From contig NZ_JAGDXI010000047.1 in assembly GCF_023256325.1 (NCBI RefSeq), forward strand, positions 1-38,103: DNA of 38,103 nucleotides, given 5' to 3'. A program made the position numbers and the translations under genes. Numbering within the stretch: position 1 is the first letter of the stretch; each line of letters begins with the position of its first letter. Below the pieces are notes generated by a model. The model was not told the DNA's origin. It saw nothing but the letters and a program-made list of their open reading frames with translations, and ran no database searches. Of the stretch, positions 13,687 to 14,808 are shown one piece after another. The stretch is from Caldisphaera sp. (GTDB lineage Archaea > Thermoproteota > Thermoprotei_A > Sulfolobales > Acidilobaceae).

Positions 13687-14361
13687 TTATATTCTTCTTT
13701 TAATACTCCATTTTAATACATTAAACATAGTAGATATTTTCATGTAACTCTTGGTGGGTTCACATTTACCTTTTCTTATAGCATCTAATATACTATACAA
13801 ATCACATTCATTACTTTCTATCTTCGTTGGGGAAGTGCCTAATTCTTGCAATACATGTGCATCACTGCCACTAGTTTTCGGCTTAAAATATTTTTCTGCC
13901 AATTTCATGGCTGGTTTATTTAGAAAAGGAATTCCTCTAGGATTCCATACCTCAATAGCATCAAAATCCTTGGGATTGTTCTTTAAATATCTCCCAACGC
14001 TTTTTCTACCTATATGAAACGGATGAGCAGCTATAGTTATACAATTATTCGATATAGCCCATTCATGAAGCTCATTTGGAATTTTTGGAGGTTCTTCATA
14101 TGGAATCCTTTCGCATAAAACCAATACATCTCCTCTTATCGTTCTTACCTCATTAGCCGGAATTACAGTTATGTTTAGATCTAGTTTTTTAGCTGATTCT
14201 ATAGCTATTGCTGATCCTCTGAATGTATTATGGTCAGAAACCGCTATTGCAGAGAGACCCAAATATACTGCCCTTAAAACTATTTCTTCTGGAGTTGATT
14301 TTCCATCACTTACTGTGCTATGCGAATGAAGTTCAGCTAAGCATTGCATTTTCTGCCCCAT
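13687..14361 (-). CDS. PHP-domain metal-dependent phosphoesterase
   Basis: A 224-residue PHP protein. Metal ligands appear in order: HSH (residues 12-14), SDGK, SDHNT, the Glu of ANEVR, AAHPFH, and the C-terminal SGSDAH. This is the stand-alone PHP type (YciV/polymerase-X-like phosphoesterases), which cleaves phosphate esters such as nucleotides or histidinol phosphate; the substrate is not known. ATG 14361 is used; Met5 is an alternative. Monocistronic. Confidence 0.85.
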   Translation of the reverse strand: MGQKMQCLAELHSHSTVSDGKSTPEEIVLRAVYLGLSAIAVSDHNTFRGSAIAIESAKKLDLNITVIPANEVRTIRGDVLVLCERIPYEEPPKIPNELHEWAISNNCITIAAHPFHIGRKSVGRYLKNNPKDFDAIEVWNPRGIPFLNKPAMKLAEKYFKPKTSGSDAHVLQELGTSPTKIESNECDLYSILDAIRKGKCEPTKSYMKISTMFNVLKWSIKRRI

Positions 14362-14808
14362 AATATGTTATGCTAATAAGACTTATTTTATCTTTAATAA
14401 ATATGAACAAAGTTAAACAGTCAATACTAATATTTAATTAAGCTTATTTACTTTAATTAGAATTATATTATTTGTGATGTAAAGCAATTGCTGAGCAAGA
14501 GCTATGAAGAAGGACACGATTGCTGAAAACAATATAAAGTAATAAATTAATAATACTGATTTTTTATAAAAATTGAAATCTTATTATTTAATAAAATAAA
14601 CTAAGGACTAATCAAAGGAATTTTGTTTTATAATAATTACTTTTTAATATTTTAGAATCAATTTAATAATAGAAAATTAACTAAAAAATGCAATATATTA
14701 ATTTTAATTTAATTTAATGAAATATTTAGAATTAATAATGCCCACCATAATTAACTATTAACAGAAAAGTATAATATTATATATTAGTTAATTTATATAT
14801 GTATTTAA
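14362..14808. other. 447-nt gap without protein gene; holds an sRNA candidate
   Basis: The gap between the divergent PHP and aminotransferase genes is very AT-rich with stops in all frames. It contains one recognisable element, the C/D-box sRNA candidate at 14474-14526. A TATA-like TTAATTTATATA at 14787-14798 near the right edge serves the aminotransferase. I see nothing else structured. Confidence 0.6.
14474..14526 (+). ncRNA. C/D-box sRNA candidate (2'-O-methylation guide)
   Basis: The order C, D', C', D is present: box C GTGATGT (14474-14480), D' CTGA (14491-14494), C' ATGAAGA (14504-14510), box D CTGA (14523-14526). Boxes C and C' each differ from RUGAUGA by one base. The guide before D' is 10 nt (14481-14490) and the guide before D is 12 nt (AGGACACGATTG, 14511-14522), right for archaeal C/D sRNAs of about 55 nt that direct 2'-O-methylation of rRNA or tRNA by fibrillarin, Nop5 and L7Ae. 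By the box-plus-five rule the D guide would modify the C in CAAUCGUGUCCU and the D' guide the second U of CAAUUGCUUU. Targets are not identified. The D'-C' gap of 9 nt is on the long side. Confidence 0.7.

Follow-up and report, generated by a model that had tools for sequence, protein, structure and literature searches.

A box C/D sRNA of Caldisphaera that may have been retuned toward the precursor of tRNA-Pro(CGG)

A 53-base element upstream of a PHP-domain protein gene in Caldisphaera is, almost certainly to judge from its sequence, an archaeal box C/D sRNA gene, predicted to be transcribed and assembled into an RNP. The RNA is of an ordinary kind, with an unusual target history. It has probably been retuned to guide 2'-O-methylation of C34 (Cm34) on pre-tRNA-Pro(CGG), where it would act before splicing. 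A wider account, whose chances we judge to be about even, is that a free-standing C/D sRNA present throughout the order docks through its D' guide on the tRNA-Pro(CGG) intron and through its D guide places the methylation on wobble C34, that these guides coevolve with the intron, and that the window's genus gave up the dual use of tRNA-Leu and tRNA-Pro in favor of tRNA-Pro(CGG) alone.

Results

Anatomy of the element

The window, the whole stretch of DNA that was analyzed, comprises the 38-kb contig C26 from the 1.52-Mb genome G000 and has a G+C content of about 31%. The preliminary description had placed a C/D-box sRNA in the gap at 14362–14808 and had found no protein gene there; the gap measures 447 nt and contains no open reading frame of 80 aa or more. 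The C, D', C', and D boxes are read from the sequence in that order at 14474–14526, and their spacing, with guides of 10 and 12 nt, is exactly as had been described. The features of the locus are as follows.

13687–14361, minus strand: PHP-domain protein gene (Pfam PHP and PHP_C), the divergent syntenic neighbor, not part of the RNA
14463–14473, plus strand: 5' strand of the terminal stem (TTATATTATTT), 10 of 11 Watson–Crick pairs with 14527–14537
14474–14480, plus strand: C box GTGATGT (RUGAUGA with the final base altered)
14481–14490, plus strand: D' guide AAAGCAATTG, 10 nt, with no target above shuffles; drifts among congeners
14491–14494, plus strand: D' box CTGA, conserved
14495–14503, plus strand: D'–C' spacer, 9 nt, a mini-stem (GC-AAGA-GC) together with a single base belonging to the C'/D' kink-turn bulge
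14504–14510, plus strand: C' box ATGAAGA, the same in three congeneric genomes
14511–14522, plus strand: D guide AGGACACGATTG, 12 nt, proposed target the intron–exon 2 junction of pre-tRNA-Pro(CGG) with N5 opposite C34
14523–14526, plus strand: D box CTGA, invariant across every aligned homologue
14527–14537, plus strand: 3' strand of the terminal stem (AAACAATATAA), partner of 14463–14473

The 12-nt D guide, the 10-nt D' guide, and the 9-nt spacer agree with the guide spacing near 12 nt and the short D'–C' spacer of box C/D RNAs. The C box is conserved at the L048 and L047 loci and reads TGAKGA in most of 16 other genomes. A scan of both strands of the window for the full architecture (C and C' boxes with at most one mismatch each, D' and D boxes, normal spacing) returns exactly one site, the 14474–14526 element; the same scan returns no site in 100 Markov-resampled windows and 3000 resampled gaps.

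The element is enclosed by an A+U terminal stem that is absent from the preliminary description. Its 10 of 11 Watson–Crick pairs are matched by 0.04% (0.0004) of random flanks of the same composition. The stem is clear in the window and is not clear in G003 or G004. The spacer GC-AAGA-GC corresponds to a two-pair closing stem of the C'/D' kink-turn. Across 16 homologues, 88.9% of the cells of the equivalent stem are paired and each of the three pairs has undergone changes on both sides; none of 500 shuffles across these 16 genomes yields as high a fraction of paired cells. The terminal stem of the window and the covarying C'/D' stem across the order are those expected of a kink-turn or K-loop.

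An order-wide family of syntenic sRNAs

A check of conservation upstream of the aminotransferase, the gene to the right of the gap, had been suggested. The sRNA is indeed conserved but the aminotransferase is not, its place being taken by a glycosyltransferase in both congeneric genomes; the conserved neighbor is the PHP-domain gene. Upstream of that gene the sRNA is found in G000, G003, G004, G013, G022, G030, and G061. BLAST with the 91-nt element finds matches in the two congeneric genomes only, at the same site and divergent from the PHP-domain gene; to go beyond congeners to the order took a sequence model. When the same locus was inspected in other genera, Acidilobus-type genomes were seen to have C/D sRNAs upstream of the PHP gene; syntenic homologues are carried by four Acidilobus-like genomes and the two congeneric ones. 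In what follows, Caldisphaera-type refers to G000 (the window genome), G003, and G004, and Acidilobus-type to G013, G022, and G030.

The first sequence model, built from six syntenic sRNAs, gives strong matches across the order, mostly one per genome, and at least 30 genomes of that order carry the family. The family matches that were read are all C/D sRNAs; their D guide (GGTCTTGAG) hardly varies, and most of their D' guides contain CTCGG. A further model, R2, contains 16 family members and leaves out the window's genus; its sole match in 67 kb is the window site (15.5 bits, E = 0.0011). This match makes the window sRNA an ortholog of the order-wide family, and by both homology and synteny it falls within the tRNA-Leu(CAA) Cm34 guide family of alignment A3. 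Syntenic conservation, this homology, and the covarying C'/D' stem bear out the identification of the element as a C/D sRNA. Alignment A3 (L149–L168, L195–L211) is of an order-wide C/D family with a near-invariant D guide, GGTCTTGAGT, directed at C34 of tRNA-Leu(CAA); Rfam contains no family or model that matches the window copy.

Targets of the family outside the window's genus

In other members of the order the D guide (GGGTCTTGAGTG) matches the tRNA-Leu(CAA) anticodon loop and is aimed at C34. Positions N2–N12 of the Acidilobus-type D guide pair with this loop, with C34 at N+5, when the tRNA gene is taken from the window genome rather than from Acidilobus. The same guide also pairs with the intron–exon junction of pre-tRNA-Pro(CGG), again with C34 at N+5, through 8 Watson–Crick and 2 wobble pairs in N2–N12.

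The partner of the family's D' guide is very probably the pre-tRNA-Pro(CGG) intron, located near position 32/33. Complementarity amounts to 12 Watson–Crick pairs in G030, 11 in G013, and 10 in G022, and for each of these guides 0 of 1500 shuffles reach the fit to its own intron. The three genomes differ in the four guide bases closest to the D' box; these match 4 of 4 in their own intron and 1–3 of 4 in swapped introns. The diagonal of the guide–intron swap matrix is highest for all three. The guide RNA and the tRNA-Pro precursor appear to change together between species. Several further archaeal tRNA-Pro(CGG) genes have introns with GCCGAG, the complement of the D' guide motif; with introns of this kind two more D' guides form 10 pairs plus wobbles, guide and intron coming from different records.

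The D' guide of G022 (L053 / L150) also fits the 23S rRNA of G003 (L076) at CAATGCCGGGC about equally well, over 11 positions with one wobble; this may be a coincidence.

Changes in the window's genus

In Caldisphaera-type genomes tRNA-Pro(CGG) has a shorter intron, one that does not contain GCCGAG; this intron motif and the guide motif CTCGGC are both lost in all three Caldisphaera-type genomes. Pairing of the genus's D' guide with the intron is weak, in the window no better than that of shuffles; pairing above that level is seen in the three Acidilobus-type genomes. The D' guide of the window probably has no functional target in this species.

The D guide has changed differently. The intron end GAC has become GAA (last base C to A) and N3 of the guide has gone from G to T, a substitution that restores the pair with tRNA-Pro and breaks the pair with tRNA-Leu. 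Further pairs with pre-tRNA-Pro(CGG) are gained by the Caldisphaera-type guide at N6 and N9, and at N7 as well in G003 and G004. The window guide finds its best site at the intron–exon junction, where it forms 9 of 10 pairs, with one mismatch in N2–N11 and with N5 opposite C34; the unpaired position is N7 in the window and N8 in G003 and G004. Among the three species the guide is conserved at N2–N6 and N9–N11, and exactly those positions pair with pre-tRNA-Pro(CGG). No site but the junction, in 13 kb of stable RNA, can pair with all genus-conserved guide positions; this is to be read beside the roughly 10% of shuffled conserved-letter patterns that likewise match some site of the pool.

With the anticodon loop of tRNA-Leu(CAA) (CUCAAGA) the window D guide makes scattered pairs only, and the tRNA-Leu guide pattern GGTCTTGAGNNCTGA does not occur in G000 or G003. 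The match to GGTCTTGAGNNCTGA in G004 has one mismatch, is not preceded by a C' box, and lies outside any C/D frame; one-mismatch matches to the pattern in G001, G002, and G004 seem to be due to chance, since no C' box stands before them. The three Caldisphaera-type genomes appear to be without an order-type guide for C34 of tRNA-Leu(CAA), and the tRNA itself is unchanged where it was read.

Strength of the target scans

Exact targets in mature rRNA or tRNA had been predicted for both guides. They did not materialize: in a pool made up of the genome's 42 tRNA genes and partial rRNA operon, with full-length 16S and 23S rRNAs from the close relative G003, neither guide of any of the three species gives a match above shuffled guides, and an exact search of the genome for one predicted target, CAATCGTGTCCT, returns only the sRNA itself. 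The positive controls were detected, with 12 pairs to 23S rRNA for a second C/D sRNA of the genus and 11 to tRNA-Leu(CAA) for the Acidilobus D guide. This second sRNA (L192, L193, and L194 in G001, G002, and G003) has the D' guide TTTGCCGAGT, which forms its 12 pairs with 23S rRNA at AACTCGGCAAAC/T.

When the whole stable-RNA pool is considered, the score of the D-guide duplex with pre-tRNA-Pro(CGG) is likewise not above that of shuffled guides; against pre-tRNA-Pro(CGG) alone, shuffled guides reach it in about 0.5–2% of cases. Each species of the genus has one internal mismatch in the duplex, and because the three guides are homologous their agreement is not independent. The argument for this target is built on the placement of C34 at N+5, the pattern of conserved positions, and the covariation with the intron.

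Two further observations may be recorded. An archaeal model matches the own 16S gene (L002 500–1800, contig C27 of G000) over 1142 bases with gaps, and intron-like inserts appear to interrupt it; no 5' part of the gene was found on this contig, and that region was covered by the rRNA of G003, whose 16S is uninterrupted at 1501 nt. A 94-nt tRNA gene is identical in two species (L031, G000 C29:54957–55050, and L139, G003). It reads as tRNA-Thr(TGT) with a D-arm insert, and ARAGORN reports it as Pro(GGG) with an anticodon intron.

Discussion

The observations suggest a mechanism in which the sRNA would fold into a two-site guide RNA with C/D and C'/D' kink-turns, and fibrillarin would act on the target by methylating the nucleotide that is paired five bases upstream of the D box. 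In the ancestral sRNA, the D guide would have fitted C34 of tRNA-Leu(CAA) and, more weakly, C34 of pre-tRNA-Pro(CGG), while the D' guide would have base-paired with the intron of the latter. In the window's genus the intron has become shorter and no longer offers the D' site, the D' guide is without its matching sequence, and the D guide has shifted to fit the intron–exon junction of pre-tRNA-Pro(CGG). A D guide fitted to that junction implies that the window sRNA would direct 2'-O-methylation of C34 on tRNA-Pro(CGG) while it is still unspliced.

It is possible, though rather unlikely, that the RNA is a genuine C/D sRNA whose guides have been orphaned in this genus, that it is kept for protein binding or for an unknown target, and that its pairing with pre-tRNA-Pro(CGG) is a relic or accidental. 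The literature contains many orphan guides, and also tRNA-targeting sRNAs in which one guide is without a target (PMC7994747); such a state would agree with the unconserved D' guide and with the lack of an above-chance target in tRNA and 16S/23S rRNA. It is harder to reconcile with a D guide that is kept at N2–N6 and N9–N11, exactly the positions paired with pre-tRNA-Pro(CGG) at C34, and with the covariation of N3 with the intron. A normal target outside the pool, whether 5S rRNA, SRP RNA, RNase P RNA, an mRNA, or the absent region of the own 16S, seems improbable. Those RNAs did lie outside the scan, as did the 5' part of the own 16S, but the complete 16S and 23S rRNAs of G003 were scanned with the guides of three species and gave nothing above shuffles.

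Loss of both ancestral guides, together with a C box lacking its last A, might instead mark the window copy as a pseudogene that has degenerated from the ancestral guide sRNA for tRNA-Leu(CAA). This we regard as very improbable, because three species share identical D', C', and D boxes despite flanking DNA that aligns poorly, the D guide is conserved, and the terminal stem is intact in the window.

Pyrococcus is known to have guides that address C34 of tRNA-Leu(CAA) (PMC7994747). With archaeal wobble-34 C/D guides the sRNA shares its box architecture and, for the proposed target, would share the N+5 rule and C34 as the nucleotide addressed; its order-wide relatives share the specificity for tRNA-Leu(CAA). 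The window copy, in contrast, has no tRNA-Leu(CAA) fit, and its proposed target is pre-tRNA-Pro(CGG) across the intron–exon boundary. A box C/D RNA resides within the pre-tRNA-Trp intron in Haloferax and in Pyrococcus (sR50), and C34 is methylated there on the intron-containing pre-tRNA (PMC7994747, PMC4090602). The methylation proposed here would also fall on C34 of an intron-containing precursor. In the tRNA-Trp system, however, the intron is the guide, whereas here the guide has a separate gene and the intron is the pairing partner. Like the dual-guide C/D sRNAs of rRNA, the relatives have D' and D guides that both pair with one RNA, pre-tRNA-Pro(CGG); unlike them, they address a tRNA precursor, in which an intron that is discarded contains one of the sites. 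The Pyrobaculum C/D catalogue of Lui et al. 2018 (cited in PMC7994747) is, to our knowledge, the most comprehensive one published for crenarchaea, and intron-pairing guides may already have been noted in it.

Introns of tRNA genes are usually regarded as passive. If the present account is true, a trans-acting guide that covaries with a tRNA intron would confer a function on the intron and set modification ahead of splicing. It would also afford a stepwise view of a methylation guide changing its target, one that can be tested in culturable relatives.
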